A DNA stretch of 64,000 nt from contig NZ_AP022583.1 in NCBI RefSeq assembly GCF_010731635.1, forward strand, positions 4,340,001 through 4,404,000, written 5' to 3'. The first letter of the stretch is position 1, and the number at the start of each line of letters is the position of its first letter. A program made the translations under genes and the position numbers. Shown here piece after piece: positions 41,354 to 47,151 of the stretch. The stretch is from Mycobacterium noviomagense. GTDB taxonomy: Bacteria; Actinomycetota; Actinomycetes; Mycobacteriales; Mycobacteriaceae. The notes under the pieces are model-generated. The model saw only the letters and a list, made by a program, of their open reading frames with translations, was not told the DNA's origin and did not search any database.

Positions 41354-41848
41354 TTAGGGAAGCCGCCGAACTGCACCGGCGTAGCTAAGTGCGTGCTCGT
41401 AGGTTTCGAGGTTGTCGCGCGAGATTTTGGCGTGCACTGGGCGCTCGAAAAGAAAGCGCAGCACTGGGTTATAGGCGTGATAGTCCTCATGAAAAGTAAG
41501 CACCGTGGTGCCGTCGGGTTGTTCTTCGAGTTCGTGGTAACCCTCCGCGCGCGACCACAGCGGCTTCCCGATTGCGACATAGCGCGAAAGTTTGTTGAGC
41601 TTCGCCTCTGTCACGGTCTCGAACGACCGTCCCTTGCCGCCTGACATTAAGTACTTGGGCACGGCGAACACACATGTGCGGACCAAACCCTGACCGGCTT
41701 CGTCGCCTTCATGCAGAATCTCCATGCTGCCGGTGGGCCACTTGAGGACCCGTGGCCGTGGAGAGTTCGGCGGCGCCGGTGGGTGCAGCACTCGCCACAC
41801 TTTTCCCGGCGGCGCATCGACATGGAATCGCACTGTGTATGAGCGCAT
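41354..41848 (-). CDS. SRPBCC superfamily protein
   Basis: 164 residues, predicted START/Bet v1-like ligand-binding fold: YTVRFHVDAPPGKVWRVLHP, FETVTEAKLNKLSRYVAIGK, EGYHELEEQPDGTTVLTFHE and FLFERPVHAKISRDNLETYE. No signal peptide. ATG at 41846-41848 overlaps the nitroreductase stop by one base (TGATG), so the two are translationally coupled. A longer frame upstream is unrelated sequence antisense to the nitroreductase. Confidence 0.78.
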   Translation of the reverse strand: MRSYTVRFHVDAPPGKVWRVLHPPAPPNSPRPRVLKWPTGSMEILHEGDEAGQGLVRTCVFAVPKYLMSGGKGRSFETVTEAKLNKLSRYVAIGKPLWSRAEGYHELEEQPDGTTVLTFHEDYHAYNPVLRFLFERPVHAKISRDNLETYEHALSYAGAVRRLP

Positions 41849-42477
41849 CAGTGTTCTCCCCAGGTATTCCAGAAGGTGACGGTCTCCGCGGGTGGCCGAG
41901 ATGCGGGTCGAAAGTGGCTGCCGATCGTGTACGCGACAGGGAACAGCGCAGCCTGCGTCACTGTCGCGGGTATCCCGAGCAGCTCGGCTACTTGCTGCTC
42001 CTTGGCCAAATGCATTGTGGTCCAAACGGATCCCAAGCCGCGGGAGCGAAGGGCCAGCAAGAAGCTCCAGGCGGCCGGGATGATCGATGCCCACGCCGAT
42101 GCGGCAACCAGCCGGTCGCTTTCGTCAAAGCGACGCTGCAGGCACGGAATGACGTGGACAGGCACTTGGGCCAGTGTCTCGGTGAGGGCATGGGCGCTGC
42201 GATACACGCGTTTGGTCTGGGGATCGGTTTCGGTGGCCGCGGCGTGGGCGAGGTACTGGGCGCCGATGCTTCGGTAGATGTCGGCGATGGCGGCGCGCTT
42301 GTCGGCGTCGGTGATCACCAGCCAACGCCAGTCCTGGGCATTGCTCGCCGTCGGCGCCTGCATGGCCAGCCGCACGCATTCCAGGATCACCTCACGCGCG
42401 ACCGGCCTGGTGATGTCGAGGCGTTTGCGCACCGCCCGGGTGGTGGTGAGCAATTCGTCGACCGAGGCAATGTCCAC
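41848..42477 (-). CDS. Nitroreductase family flavoprotein
   Basis: 209 residues. TTTRAVRKRLDITRPVAREV and LAMQAPTASNAQDWRWLVIT are the FMN-binding N-terminal motifs. AAWSFLLALRSRGLGSVWTT and LGIPATVTQAALFPVAYTIG complete the fold. Members reduce nitro groups, quinones or enones, or act on flavins; substrate unknown. It starts 6 bases after the AhpD-like gene and overlaps the SRPBCC gene, forming a three-gene leftward operon. Confidence 0.87.
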   Translation of the reverse strand: MDIASVDELLTTTRAVRKRLDITRPVAREVILECVRLAMQAPTASNAQDWRWLVITDADKRAAIADIYRSIGAQYLAHAAATETDPQTKRVYRSAHALTETLAQVPVHVIPCLQRRFDESDRLVAASAWASIIPAAWSFLLALRSRGLGSVWTTMHLAKEQQVAELLGIPATVTQAALFPVAYTIGSHFRPASRPPAETVTFWNTWGEH

Positions 42478-42483
42478 GGAAGC

Positions 42484-42966
42484 TCAGACGTCGATCGCGC
42501 AGGACTGGTCGATGCCGAGCACCGTCAGCGTGCGGCCCAGACCGAGGAACACCGCAATGCACAGCGTGAGGTCGAGAATTTCTGCGTCGGTGAACAGCTC
42601 GCGCATCCGCGCGATGAACGCGTCCTCAATCGCCGCATGGTCAGTGGCAAAGCGCTCGGCGTACTCGATGGCTAGTCGTTGCCGCGGCGTATAGCCGGGG
42701 TAGGTGTCGTAAGCGGCGACGTTCTCGTACAGCTCTGGCGCGATGCCAGCCTGCAGCACCGACGGGGCACGAAAGTCCGAGCACGCGATGCAGTCGTTGA
42801 TCTGCGCGATGCGCATTCGGGCCAGTTCGCGTTCTTCCGGCGGGAGGATGCTCTGCTGGTAGGCGCCTTCGATCATCCGCTGCACCATGCCGCTGAGCTC
42901 TGGTCGCAATGTCCAGACCATCGCGGCCTCGCCACCGGGACCGTCGGGGACCTCAATCCGCGCCAT
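42484..42966 (-). CDS. Carboxymuconolactone decarboxylase family protein (AhpD-like)
   Basis: 160 residues. The CxxC pair in INDCIACSDFRAPSVLQAGI is the AhpD/CMD signature. Helical core: LARMRIAQ, RQRLAIEYAERFATDHAAIE and AEILDLTLCIAVFLGLGRTL. Family members are peroxidase reductants or decarboxylases. ATG at 42964-42966. First gene of the leftward operon, divergent with 128 bases of spacing from the paralogue/ligase/P450 cluster, so the two operons may share a control region. Confidence 0.85.
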   Translation of the reverse strand: MARIEVPDGPGGEAAMVWTLRPELSGMVQRMIEGAYQQSILPPEERELARMRIAQINDCIACSDFRAPSVLQAGIAPELYENVAAYDTYPGYTPRQRLAIEYAERFATDHAAIEDAFIARMRELFTDAEILDLTLCIAVFLGLGRTLTVLGIDQSCAIDV

Positions 42967-43094
42967 GCCTGAGCAAACCAAATTCTGGGCGCAGCTGTCT
43001 AGATGCCGACGACGGCCGTGGACACGGCAGGTCATGCGGAATAACGTGCGGGAAGCGCGGGCGCGCAGCGCAGCCTGCTTTGGGAGGTCTCGGC

Positions 43095-43793
43095 ATGCTG
43101 TTCATGCACGAGGTGCACAAGGTGCGTGGCCGTGCCGAAGACGACTTCGAGGCCACCTTCCGCGAAGGCTGGATGCCACTGCTGGGCGCCGGCGACGAGG
43201 CGCGGCTGTTGTGGTACGCCAACCACGCCCACGGCAGCGGCCCCTCCTACACCGTCGTCACCGTCACCGCCGTTCGCGACGGAACGGCCTGGGAACGCCT
43301 GGCACTGCGGGTGCAGAAAGGCGATCTGCGGCAATGGATGCGCGAGCTCGACGAACTGCGCTACGACGTCGAAGCCAAACTGCTGATGTCGCTGCCGTGG
43401 TCGCCGCTGCAAGACGTGCTGTTCGAGCAGGTTCCGGTCGATGGCCGCGAGCACGAGCTGACGCTCTACATGGAAGACACCATGTGGCCCTTCGCAAACA
43501 AGTTCACCGAATACATCGACCGCTGCGGTGAGGTGTACGCCAAGAGTCTCGACCGACCGGCTGCCATGCTCACCATCGAAGCTGCGTTCCGGCCGGCGCT
43601 GGGGAGCCGGCTGCGCCGAGAGGTAACGCTGATGCAGCGCATCAACCAACCCGAGGCTTTGTTTCACCTGCTCCGCACCGAGATTCCGCCCGAGCGGCGC
43701 GCTCCGGGAACCTGGATGCACGACGCACTCGACCTTCGCGATCAATGGACCAGCCGGCTGCTGCGGACCTCGTCATGGTCGCCCCTGTACTGA
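43095..43793 (+). CDS. Uncharacterised paralogue A (NIPSNAP-like fold suspected)
   Basis: 232 residues, family not recognised. It is similar along its whole length to the gene at 45254: both have LF(M/L)HE(V/T)H, EDDFEA, GWMP, ARLLWY, NHAHGSG, WMREL, WSPLQ, MEDT, and end with SRLLRTSxWSPLY. The N-terminal half (EDDFEATFREGWMPLLGAGD, RLLWYANHAHGSGPSYTVVT) looks like a dimeric alpha/beta-barrel and the C-terminal half like a diverged repeat. No signal or membrane segment. GGGAGG precedes ATG 43095. An acyl-CoA ligase begins 4 bases after its stop. Confidence 0.8.
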   Translation: MLFMHEVHKVRGRAEDDFEATFREGWMPLLGAGDEARLLWYANHAHGSGPSYTVVTVTAVRDGTAWERLALRVQKGDLRQWMRELDELRYDVEAKLLMSLPWSPLQDVLFEQVPVDGREHELTLYMEDTMWPFANKFTEYIDRCGEVYAKSLDRPAAMLTIEAAFRPALGSRLRREVTLMQRINQPEALFHLLRTEIPPERRAPGTWMHDALDLRDQWTSRLLRTSSWSPLY

Positions 43794-43797
43794 GCGC

Positions 43798-45237
43798 ATG
43801 AACATCGGCACAATCGTCGACGCCCCCGCAGCCCGCGATCCCGACCGCGCTGCACTGATCATCGGCGGTCGCATCGTCAGCTACCGCGAGCTGGCAACCG
43901 CAGTGGACCGATGCGCCGCCGGCCTGGCCGCGAGCCGGCTGGCCGGCAAACGCGTTGCGGTAGTCGACACCGGAAGCCTGTTGTCGATTGCGGCAGTGGT
44001 GGGTGCGGCGCGGGTCGGCGCTGCCGCTGCGCTGATGAACCCCGCCCTGACACCGTCGGAGCTGCGGGCGCTGCTGGAACACGCTGGGTGCGCCGATGTC
44101 GGTGTCGCGGGGGAGGCGTACGCGGATCGGCTGCGCCAAGCGGGTGCGGCCAAGGCACTGACCGCATCAGACCTGTTGGCTCGCAACAATATTGGCAGGC
44201 TGACCGCCGAAAACGTCGACGATCGTGAGGCTTTAGTGTTATTCACCAGCGGCACCACGGGGCTGCCGAAGGCGGTCGGCATTACCCACGCGCAGTTGAG
44301 TGCACGGATCACCGGTTTCAGTACGGGTTTTCGGCCCGACGCGGAAGCGGCGGTCAGCATCATGTGCGTGCCGTTCTTCCATGTCGGTGGCGCACTGGGC
44401 ATGCTCGGCAGCCTGTACTCGGGCAATACGTCGGTGGTGCAAGACCGGTTCGACCCAGGAGAGTGGTTGCGCCTGGTGCAAGAGCATCGGGTGAGCACCG
44501 CGTTTCTGGTGCCAACGATGCTGCAGCGGATCCTCGACCATCCCGACTTCGCCCGCACCGACCTCAGCTCACTCGTCGCGATCGCGTACGGGGCGGCTGC
44601 TGCGCCCGTCGCACTGGTGCACAGAGCCATGGAGGCGTTGCCGAATGTGGCTTTTGCCAACGTCTTTGGGCAGACGGAGACCCTGGGTGCCTACACCACG
44701 CTGTCGCCCGACGATCACCGCGATCCCAATCGGGTGGGATCGGTAGGCCGGCCACTGCCCGGGGTTGACGTGCGGGTGGTCGACCCCGATACGGGCATGG
44801 ACGTCGAACCGGGAAATGTCGGCGAACTCTGGGTCAACACCAGCCAGAACGTGACGGGCGGCTGGCTGCATACCGGTGACCTCGCCCGCCAGGACCGCGA
44901 CGGCTACATCTATCCCGCCGGCCGGCTGACCGATACGATCAACCGCGGGGGAGAGAAGTTCGGGCCGATCGAGGTCGAGGACGCCATCCGCACCCACCCC
45001 GCGGTCCGCGATGTGGCCGTCGCGGGGATCGCCGACGACGAGATGGGCCAGCGGGTGGGTGCCGCTGTGGTGGTGCGAACGTCCGTGACGCTCAACGAAT
45101 TGCGCTCGCACTGCCGTGAGCGGATCGCCTATTTCAAGCTGCCCGAACGGCTGGTGATCGTCGACCACATTCCCTACAGCGAAACCGGCAAGGTCAACCG
45201 CCGTCAGCTCGCCGCGTTGATCGCGGACAAAGCCTGA
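43798..45237 (+). CDS. Class I acyl-CoA synthetase (AMP-forming)
   Basis: 479 residues. The phosphate-binding loop is VLFTSGTTGLPKAVG (about 147-161), the adenine motif is FGQTETLGAYT, the hinge WLHTGDLARQDRDGYIY, IKRGGEKF-like INRGGEKFGPIEVEDAI, and the catalytic Lys is in SETGKVNRRQL near the end. Slightly short for the family because the N-terminus is compact. Activates an unknown carboxylic acid. ATG at 43798 is 4 bases after paralogue A, and paralogue B follows after 16 bases, so it belongs to one transcript. Confidence 0.87.
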   Translation: MNIGTIVDAPAARDPDRAALIIGGRIVSYRELATAVDRCAAGLAASRLAGKRVAVVDTGSLLSIAAVVGAARVGAAAALMNPALTPSELRALLEHAGCADVGVAGEAYADRLRQAGAAKALTASDLLARNNIGRLTAENVDDREALVLFTSGTTGLPKAVGITHAQLSARITGFSTGFRPDAEAAVSIMCVPFFHVGGALGMLGSLYSGNTSVVQDRFDPGEWLRLVQEHRVSTAFLVPTMLQRILDHPDFARTDLSSLVAIAYGAAAAPVALVHRAMEALPNVAFANVFGQTETLGAYTTLSPDDHRDPNRVGSVGRPLPGVDVRVVDPDTGMDVEPGNVGELWVNTSQNVTGGWLHTGDLARQDRDGYIYPAGRLTDTINRGGEKFGPIEVEDAIRTHPAVRDVAVAGIADDEMGQRVGAAVVVRTSVTLNELRSHCRERIAYFKLPERLVIVDHIPYSETGKVNRRQLAALIADKA

Positions 45238-45253
45238 GCCAAGAGGAGTCGTC

Positions 45254-45967
45254 GTGCTGTTCCTTCACGAAACCCACCGGGTGATCGGCGCGCGTGAAGA
45301 CGATTTCGAGGCGGCCTACCGAGACGGCTGGATGCCCACGTTGGCCAAGGGCGACGATGCTCGGCTGCTTTGGTACACCAACCACGCCCACGGCTCCGGG
45401 GTGTCCTACAACGTCGTCACCATCACCGCCGTCACCGACGGCGCGGCGTGGGAGAAACTGGCCCGCCGCACCGACTCCGGGGACCTGGCGCCATGGATGC
45501 GCGAGCTGGACAACCTGCGCCACGAGGTGACCGGCAAAATCTTGCTGCCGGTCGAGTGGTCACCGCTGCAGGAGGTCGATCTGGCGAGTGTCCCCACCGA
45601 CGGTGCCACACACCCGCTGAGCTTGTTCATGGAGGACACCGGCTGGCCCTACGCCCCGCTGGACGACTACATCCGCTCCTGGGATGAGATCTACTACCGG
45701 CCGCTGTCCCAGGCGCCGCCGGGTATGCGGTTGCTCGACATTCAAGCGTGCTTCCAGGTGGCGCACGGCACCTACAAGCGACGGGAGGCCATGCTGTGGC
45801 AGAAAATCGATCCGTCTGACGACTATGCGGCGCTCGTGCACCTGCTGACCACCGACCTGCCGTCCGAACGGCGCGGGCCGGGCAGCTACATGTTCGAGGC
45901 CTTGAAGTATCGCGACCAGTGGGAGAGCCGGCTGCTGCGGACTTCTGCGTGGTCGCCGCTGTACTGA
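45254..45967 (+). CDS. Uncharacterised paralogue B (NIPSNAP-like fold suspected)
   Basis: 237 residues. Same family as the gene at 43095, with identity concentrated in AREDDFEAAYRDGWMP, DARLLWYTNHAHGSG, ESRLLRTSAWSPLY, and FMEDTGWPY. GTG start at 45254 with AGAGGAG. Keeping two diverged copies on either side of a ligase suggests a heteromer or two successive steps, but this is inference. It overlaps the start of the P450 frame. Function unknown. Confidence 0.8.
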   Translation: MLFLHETHRVIGAREDDFEAAYRDGWMPTLAKGDDARLLWYTNHAHGSGVSYNVVTITAVTDGAAWEKLARRTDSGDLAPWMRELDNLRHEVTGKILLPVEWSPLQEVDLASVPTDGATHPLSLFMEDTGWPYAPLDDYIRSWDEIYYRPLSQAPPGMRLLDIQACFQVAHGTYKRREAMLWQKIDPSDDYAALVHLLTTDLPSERRGPGSYMFEALKYRDQWESRLLRTSAWSPLY

Positions 45968-47151
45968 GCGCGGGTATCGCCATCGAGAAGTTTCCGATCG
46001 GGCTGGCCGCGACGCTGCGCGAGCTGGAGGAAGATCCGCACCCGCTGCTGGCACGGCTGCGGGCAGCCGAGCCCGTGACGTGGCTCGAGGCAGTGGGCGG
46101 ATGGTTGATCACGAGGTACGACCTTGCGGTGCGGGTATTGCGCGATCCCGCCACGTTCACCGTCGACGATCCCCGCTTCTCCACCGCGAGGGTGGTCGGG
46201 CCCAGCATGCTCTCGTTCGACGGCGCCGCCCACGGACGTCACCGTGACGCTTTTGCGCGACCCTTTCACCCGGCGCGCGTCCGCGAGCGGTTCACCCCGT
46301 TCATCGAGGCGCAGACGGACCGGCTGATCGCCGCGATGGAACCGACTGGCCGCGCGGAGTTGCGCCGGCAGTTCGCCGGTCCGCTCGCGGTTGCAGTCGT
46401 CACGGAAGCGCTGGGACTGCCAGGCGTCGACACTGATGCGGTGTTGAGCTGGTATGCGGCGATCGTGGCGGCGGTGTCGGATGCGACGGGCGGCCGGCCG
46501 GTCAATGCGGCAGGCGCGGAAGCGTTCGGCCGGCTGCGGTCCGTCGTGCTGACGTCGTTTGACGACCCGCGGTCACTGTTGGCCGAGGCGGCACGGACAC
46601 CCGACGGCCTCGGTCCCGACGAGGTGGCGTCCAACGCGGTGGTGCTGATGTTCGGCGGTGTCGACACCACCGAAGGGATGATCCTCAACGCGGTCCGGCA
46701 TTTACTTGCTGACAGCGAGGCGCTGGCTGCCGTCCGCGCGCAAAGCGACCTCTTGCCCAACGGGATCGAGGAGTCGATCCGCCTCGAGCCTGCCGCCGCC
46801 TCTGTCGACCGATACGCCACCTGCGACGTCGAGCTGGAAGATGCACACATTCAGCGCGGTGATCTGGTGGTCGTATCGCTTGCCGGGGCCAACCGCGATC
46901 CGAGCGTCTTCGCCGAGCCCGACCGGTTCGACGTCTACCGGGCCAATGCGCGGCTGAATCTGGCTTTCGCTCAGGGAGCGCACTTCTGCCTAGGCGCTCA
47001 GCTCGCCAGAACCGAAACCACCATCGCGGTCGCCCGACTCCTGGATCGCCTTCCCGGCCTGCGCCTCGCCGATGAACAGCCGAATTCGCCGCGCGGCTTG
47101 GTGTTTCGCAAACCGCCGCTTCTGCACGTGCGTTGGGCCAGTAAGTTCTAG
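45919..47151 (+). CDS. Cytochrome P450
   Basis: 410 residues at the longest start. I-helix GGVDTTEGMI, ExxR in EESIRLEP, and the haem-binding LAFAQGAHFCLGAQ with Cys at about 357. Substrate and CYP family not assigned; it is clearly different from the CYP125 at 7652. The start is uncertain: GTG 45919 overlaps paralogue B by 49 bases, GTG 45949 by 19, and neither has a clear ribosome site. It is the last gene of the paralogue-ligase-paralogue-P450 run and would oxidise the acyl chain or ring handled by the ligase, if the cluster is a pathway. Confidence 0.87.
   Translation: MGEPAAADFCVVAAVLSAGIAIEKFPIGLAATLRELEEDPHPLLARLRAAEPVTWLEAVGGWLITRYDLAVRVLRDPATFTVDDPRFSTARVVGPSMLSFDGAAHGRHRDAFARPFHPARVRERFTPFIEAQTDRLIAAMEPTGRAELRRQFAGPLAVAVVTEALGLPGVDTDAVLSWYAAIVAAVSDATGGRPVNAAGAEAFGRLRSVVLTSFDDPRSLLAEAARTPDGLGPDEVASNAVVLMFGGVDTTEGMILNAVRHLLADSEALAAVRAQSDLLPNGIEESIRLEPAAASVDRYATCDVELEDAHIQRGDLVVVSLAGANRDPSVFAEPDRFDVYRANARLNLAFAQGAHFCLGAQLARTETTIAVARLLDRLPGLRLADEQPNSPRGLVFRKPPLLHVRWASKF

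Follow-up and report, generated by a model that had tools for sequence, protein, structure and literature searches.

The Mycobacterium noviomagense genome (4.78 Mb; NZ_AP022583.1) carries, within the 64,000-nt stretch analyzed here (the window, whose numbering is used for all gene positions), a gene cluster in which a putative acyl-CoA ligase, LIG, lies between two related proteins, NipA and NipB. The Nip proteins constitute a new protein family; in other respects the cluster is a metabolic one of ordinary type. We propose, with moderate confidence, that the core of this cluster is a carboxylic-acid activation module of LIG and NipA, with NipB in an assisting role, together with a flavin/thiol operon, and that its role is most likely catabolic. 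The names NipA, NipB, LIG, and NTR (the last for a nitroreductase-family protein of the same cluster) were coined in the present analysis.

A conserved six-gene set surrounds the ligase

Seven genes are located at positions 41354 to 47151, as a minus-strand operon of three and a divergent plus-strand set of four. The features are as follows.

41354 to 41848, minus strand: SRPBCC protein, 164 residues (PF10604, Polyketide_cyc2, E 7.7e-7, 29.9 bits against a cut-off of 27.4)
41848 to 42477, minus strand: NTR, nitroreductase-family flavoprotein, 209 residues (PF00881, E 8.1e-22)
42484 to 42966, minus strand: CMD/AhpD-like protein, 160 residues (PF02627, E 3.7e-9)
42975 to 43002, no strand assigned: box AAACCARATTC-N8-GCTGTCYAG, conserved in many mycobacteria between the divergent CMD and NipA genes, a candidate promoter/operator
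43095 to 43793, plus strand: NipA, 232 residues, a predicted two-domain dimeric alpha/beta barrel protein (no Pfam or NCBIfam family)
43798 to 45237, plus strand: LIG, putative ANL-family acyl-CoA ligase, 479 residues (PF00501 and PF13193, E 1.7e-73)
45254 to 45967, plus strand: NipB, 237 residues, a NipA paralogue (no Pfam or NCBIfam family)
45949 to 47151, plus strand: cytochrome P450, 400 residues from a GTG start, a lineage-specific neighbor (PF00067, E 7.9e-25)

A prior reading of the DNA made from its letters alone (the sequence-only reading) had described a related pair of about 235 residues closely flanking a CoA ligase and followed by a P450, and a divergent CMD, nitroreductase, and SRPBCC operon with overlapping codons. 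Both descriptions proved accurate. NipA and NipB are 57% identical across 237 aligned positions, and the gaps from NipA to LIG and from LIG to NipB are 4 and 16 nt. CMD and NTR are 6 nt apart, NTR and the SRPBCC gene overlap by 1 nt (TGATG), and the P450 frame, starting at the GTG at 45949, overlaps the end of NipB by 19 nt. Position 42966 is the best choice for the start of CMD because its start codon is conserved in all 45 mycobacterial loci tested, and in many of these an in-frame stop lies only a few codons upstream.

LIG has an intact reading frame. ANL ligases carry a P-loop and a C-terminal lysine motif, and the corresponding LIG sequences, SGTTGLPK and TGK, are conserved in 52 sequences. 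Together with PF00501 and PF13193, these features identify LIG, as far as sequence can, as an ANL acyl-CoA ligase.

A contig search of genomes yielded 65 loci, of which 53 bear mycobacterial names and the remaining 12 derive from other metagenome-assembled genomes (MAGs). Counting a gene as present at 60% or greater identity and 85% or greater coverage, the complete ordered set SRPBCC-NTR-CMD<>NipA-LIG-NipB occurs in 33 of the 53 mycobacterial loci; the remaining 20 are truncated by contig ends or are without one or more genes. In comparison with the sister genome G185, nonsynonymous divergence (dN, 0.04–0.13) is well below synonymous divergence (dS, 0.38–0.68) in every one of the seven genes, and dN is also less than dS against the other loci compared. 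This constraint, along with the preserved order of six genes, indicates that the cluster is more than a chance arrangement. Indeed, the survey of gene neighborhoods leaves NipB, CMD, NTR, and SRPBCC as regular partners of a LIG and NipA core, with the P450 dropped from it.

NipA and NipB are predicted to be fused-barrel proteins

The two proteins are each other's sole relatives among the proteins of their own genome. Neither has a match to a Pfam model at E 0.1 or to NCBIfam, and a phmmer search of PDB sequences with NipB gave nothing at E 1. The wider family comprises 2355 relatives at E 1e-3, with no Pfam domain among the 120 matches listed, and a plasmid collection held no match to NipB or to its distant relative.

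Structure prediction of each paralogue as a single chain gave confident AlphaFold models, with a predicted local distance difference score of 92.1 and a predicted template modeling score of 0.88 for NipA, and 89.5 and 0.87 for NipB. The models contain two ferredoxin-like beta-alpha-beta-beta-alpha units per barrel, and the order of secondary structures and the full-length structural matches agree. Thus, the Nip proteins are predicted to belong to the dimeric alpha/beta barrel superfamily (the NIPSNAP/ABM-monooxygenase/sulfur-oxygenase-reductase fold) with two fused domains. The earlier description of an unassigned family therefore holds for Pfam and NCBIfam, but the fold itself can be assigned from predicted models.

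In an alignment of 39 Nip sequences, H5 is the sole invariant histidine. Judged from this alignment rather than from structure, H5 is also the only invariant candidate for the heme-ligand histidine of chlorite dismutases and coproheme decarboxylases. Heme chemistry, or iron chemistry of the sulfur oxygenase reductase type, was considered for Nip and dropped at the sequence level, there being no invariant histidine beyond H5.

The cluster is maintained in its own genome and decaying in other mycobacteria

Of 198 genomes of the genus, themselves a sample of a larger group, 45 have Nip matches, a figure that includes fragments and two distant relatives (G049 and G178). LIG (E 1e-110) is present in 28 of the 198, and in all 28 a Nip gene lies beside it. 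An NTR orthologue accompanies 36 of the 45 Nip genomes and 24 of the 153 others (counts 36, 9, 24, and 129; Fisher p 1.8e-15, a test that ignores shared ancestry). In an order-level homologue search, all 14 positive genomes of 397 belong to the genus of the window; a phylum-level search with alignment A1 matched 9 of 396 genomes, spread over 3 of 236 genera (one match is weak and partial), and further small homologue searches added no genome. Fragments of Nip genes are found, for example, in G057, G060, G063, and G102 and in the 3.3-Mb genomes G074 and G114. The cluster is maintained in its own genome and is decaying in other mycobacteria.

The clustering of neighbor genes places the cluster at one chromosomal site in many mycobacterial species (loci L050–L114). 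Its neighbors among the 53 mycobacterial loci, with families named from one scanned representative per cluster, include a DAO-type oxidase (33), an amidohydrolase (38), a major facilitator superfamily transporter (32), and isocitrate lyase (38). In its own genome and in M. fragae (L092), the cluster instead lies near katG. The M. tuberculosis region Rv1902c–Rv1916 has a similar gene order and is not known to contain the cluster. In G185 (L130:6304–8724), transposase-like and IstB-like frames, recognized by eye, lie near the cluster between the pept246 and GT87 genes.

The P450 is a lineage-specific neighbor

P450s are marked by heme-cysteine and ExxR motifs, both of which are conserved in seven sequences, and the protein encoded after NipB matches PF00067. 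An orthologue (E 1e-100) is present in only 5 of the 198 genus genomes. It adjoins NipB in its own genome and in G185 (L130); in G147, whose NipB is truncated at the end of a contig, it lies on a separate contig, in G063 it is unlinked, and in G026 it occurs without any Nip match. Where other mycobacterial loci extend 1.5 kb or more beyond NipB (48 loci), the orthologue comes next in one, L055. Because the orthologue is so restricted and so rarely follows NipB, the P450 is an optional, lineage-specific neighbor outside the core, and the earlier supposition that it is a cluster member across species was not borne out.

P450s of other kinds do recur near Nip genes. Such P450s are immediate same-strand neighbors in L098, L100, and L140, as a P450 is in the window, G185, and L055, and are found no farther than 10 kb away in L094, L113, and L141. 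This pattern raises the alternative that Nip proteins assist P450 monooxygenases as accessory partners, by analogy with EthD, on which the EthB P450 system of Rhodococcus sp. B2 is reported to depend for activity (PMC7934444); the authors of that report call EthD a ferredoxin. We regard such a role as improbable. The Nip-associated P450s are diverse, with 27 to 32% identity to that of the window; 193 of 198 genus genomes have no orthologue of the latter, and no EthD model matches Nip. Outside the core set, a P450 is near Nip in 6 of 16 loci, a tally whose queries included those very P450s, and none is seen in the other 10, several of which are short; these neighbor figures are raw counts.

NipA and NipB appear to have separated early and do not always occur together

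In a tree of 40 Nip rows (five with long branches, and with an arbitrary root), the NipB-type proteins of mycobacteria, Acidimicrobiaceae, and other MAGs form one group, with an ultrafast bootstrap (UFBoot) of 94 and a Shimodaira–Hasegawa-like approximate likelihood ratio (SH-aLRT) of 99. Mycobacterial NipA proteins form another (98/99), and four NipA-type proteins (L091, L093, L095, and L110) fall outside both. This grouping suggests that the duplication predates mycobacteria, or that the pair travelled together; the split looks ancient.

The sequence-only reading took the retention of two diverged copies as a sign of a heteromeric enzyme. In agreement with an obligate NipA–NipB heteromer, matches to both proteins are present in 21 of the 28 ligase genomes (a few broken or split), the A and B types are neighbors or surround LIG in L091, L093, L095, and L110, and the NipB-type group includes proteins from Actinomycetota and from MAGs labelled Pseudomonadota or Myxococcota, although its UFBoot value is slightly below the star limit of the tool. 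However, the other seven ligase genomes (G006, G007, G010, G045, G047, G107, and G119) have NipA and an unbroken LIG without NipB, and a NipB-type protein stands alone outside mycobacteria in L094, L098, and L100. These distributions weaken the argument from two kept copies and make an obligate heteromer unlikely. A single open reading frame in L111 (10001–10744) encodes a natural, in-frame chimera of NipA residues 1 to ~157 with the C-terminal part of NipB, at a locus from which the ligase is gone; it, too, weighs against an obligate heteromer.

Absence of NipB appears to go with absence of CMD. The gap between NTR and NipA is 170 to 199 bases in six of the seven NipB-less genomes, which leaves no room for CMD. 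The three loci read (L134, L135, and L147) have neither CMD nor NipB, and all three belong to one clade (100/99).

The divergent operon and its intergenic box

The SRPBCC protein is 83 to 94% identical in 10 of 14 comparison loci and 84 to 87% identical in two others without CMD or NipB; the remaining two gave no match, nor did PDB sequences searched by phmmer at E 0.1. NTR scores 78.6 bits with PF00881 (cut-off 23.5) and reaches no NCBIfam cut-off, the nearest model being BluB (53 versus 150). Its orthologue, at 69% or greater identity, is found in 60 of 198 genus genomes and is distinct from a separate, widespread paralogue of about 55% identity. A second nitroreductase paralogue (G000:C1:2862637–2863266) is 57% identical to the cluster NTR; at E 1e-60 an NTR match is present in 184 of the 198, and most of these matches resemble this second paralogue. 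The AhpD relay motif is E-x11-C-x2-C-x3-H. In the cluster CMD, E-x11-C-x2-C is conserved and the place of the relay histidine is taken by an arginine kept in 56 sequences, so the protein lacks the AhpD peroxidase motif. Additional conserved cysteines lie in DLTLC and QSC.

A nitronate-monooxygenase-like gene, assigned by clustering with one representative scanned, lies on the opposite strand near 28 of the 53 mycobacterial loci. Nitro-compound metabolism involving NTR and this gene was considered and dropped.

The box at 42975 to 43002 was derived from an alignment of 58 intergenic regions, which include species repeats and the window itself. At up to three mismatches it has one site in its own genome, as does a backward-read control pattern; a regulon was therefore dropped, and the box looks more like a local promoter/operator. 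Its being a coding part of a longer CMD frame is disfavored by the in-frame stops present there in many loci.

Gene surroundings point to probable catabolism of a carboxylic acid

Nip and LIG are also adjacent in three more actinobacterial contigs. An Acidimicrobiaceae MAG (L095) has the order NipA-LIG-NipB, with 55, 56, and 70% identity and with thiolase and acyl-CoA dehydrogenase genes beside it, and in two incomplete genomes of the same phylum as the window (L156 and L157) Nip directly precedes LIG at 47 to 49% identity. More distantly, L113 and L114 each have a LIG relative (47–50%) near a distant Nip pair and a luciferase-like monooxygenase; in L113 these are joined by thiolase genes, an alcohol dehydrogenase, and a class II aldolase-like gene. 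The NipB–P450 pair of L100 is surrounded by a CoA-transferase III, a short-chain dehydrogenase/reductase (SDR), a separate EthD gene, and SMP-30, and in L141, from the genus of the window, a distant Nip pair in tandem is accompanied by a CMD gene and P450s. The surroundings thus suggest catabolism at some loci and are uninformative at L091, L093, L104, and L110.

The presence of several related loci among genes of the beta-oxidation type makes catabolism likelier than biosynthesis. A biosynthetic or tailoring cluster, for polyketide-like compounds or lipid modification, would fit the SRPBCC match to the polyketide cyclase family and the best fold matches of the Nip models, which include antibiotic-biosynthesis-type monooxygenases, PenE, and SnoaB. 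Yet the barrel fold is common to many functions, the Pfam-scanned proteins include no ketosynthase, condensation, or carrier domain (one SDR also scores with a ketoreductase model), and the neighbors in L095, L100, and L113 are catabolic in kind. A biosynthetic role consequently seems a poor prospect.

For a catabolic activation module, we envisage that LIG would convert a carboxylic acid via acyl-AMP to acyl-CoA, as its family suggests. NipA may act on the substrate or product of LIG, probably through chemistry in the barrel that needs no organic cofactor; isomerization, decarboxylation, ring closure, and oxygen insertion are candidates suggested by the fold. NipB, as a diverged copy, could perform a second step or serve as a partner of NipA, and it might act in the same step as CMD, since both are absent together in one clade. 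The SRPBCC-NTR-CMD operon would contribute flavin mononucleotide redox and thiol chemistry, whereas the P450 presumably joined in one sublineage and may hydroxylate a precursor there. A bolder and distinctly tentative extension is that NipA and NipB represent a new family of fused-barrel enzymes without organic cofactor, found in mycobacteria and in uncultured bacteria of other groups, that would transform the acyl-CoA made by the co-encoded ligase from an unrecognized class of carboxylic acids, often with prior hydroxylation by a P450.

Several observations weigh against a single carboxylic-acid module. Tandem Nip pairs occur without LIG in L091, L093, and L110, and the surroundings of these three loci and of L104 are unlike a single pathway. 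Unbroken NipA is present without a LIG match (E 1e-110) in G029, G031, G096, G131, G142, and G172, and the NTR orthologue is kept in the 24 genomes that have no Nip; parts of the cluster are evidently separable. In addition, CMD and NipB may have gone missing together in one event, CMD having been looked for at the locus only. The sequence-only reading named two findings that would count against it, paralogues unlinked to the ligase and P450 elsewhere and a match to a known pathway. The tandem pairs supply the former, and no known pathway emerged from hidden Markov model searches with Pfam and NCBIfam. A cluster for a carboxylic acid and its CoA ester survives from that reading, and the P450 as a member does not. 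The ligase and NipA together make the locus a defined, testable unit in mycobacteria, and the identity of the acid would explain why the locus is selected in some mycobacteria and visibly being lost in others.

Comparison with known systems

Among the papers listed by searches of an open-access library, from which most subscription papers are absent, no description of a Nip/ligase cluster was found. Members of the NIPSNAP family (PDB 1vqy and 5ixu) are single-domain proteins, whereas Nip has two fused domains and matches no Pfam model at E 0.1. A match in fold, at 5 to 10% sequence identity, is seen with two-domain ABM-like putative monooxygenases (3f44 and 3mcs), PenE (9kdp), and the anthrone oxidase-like 5f9p. 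Sulfur oxygenase reductases (2cb2 and 6qpa) match in fold only and have about 300 residues, compared with 232 to 237 for Nip. The cluster CMD shares PF02627 and E-x11-C-x2-C with the AhpD/CMD family and differs by the arginine in place of the relay histidine. EthD has an alpha/beta barrel fold like that predicted for Nip. In the EthABCD system, EthD is a 10-kDa protein (PMC7934444). Both systems place a small protein beside a P450, but Nip proteins have 232 to 237 residues and no PF07110 match, and their P450 is not part of the core.

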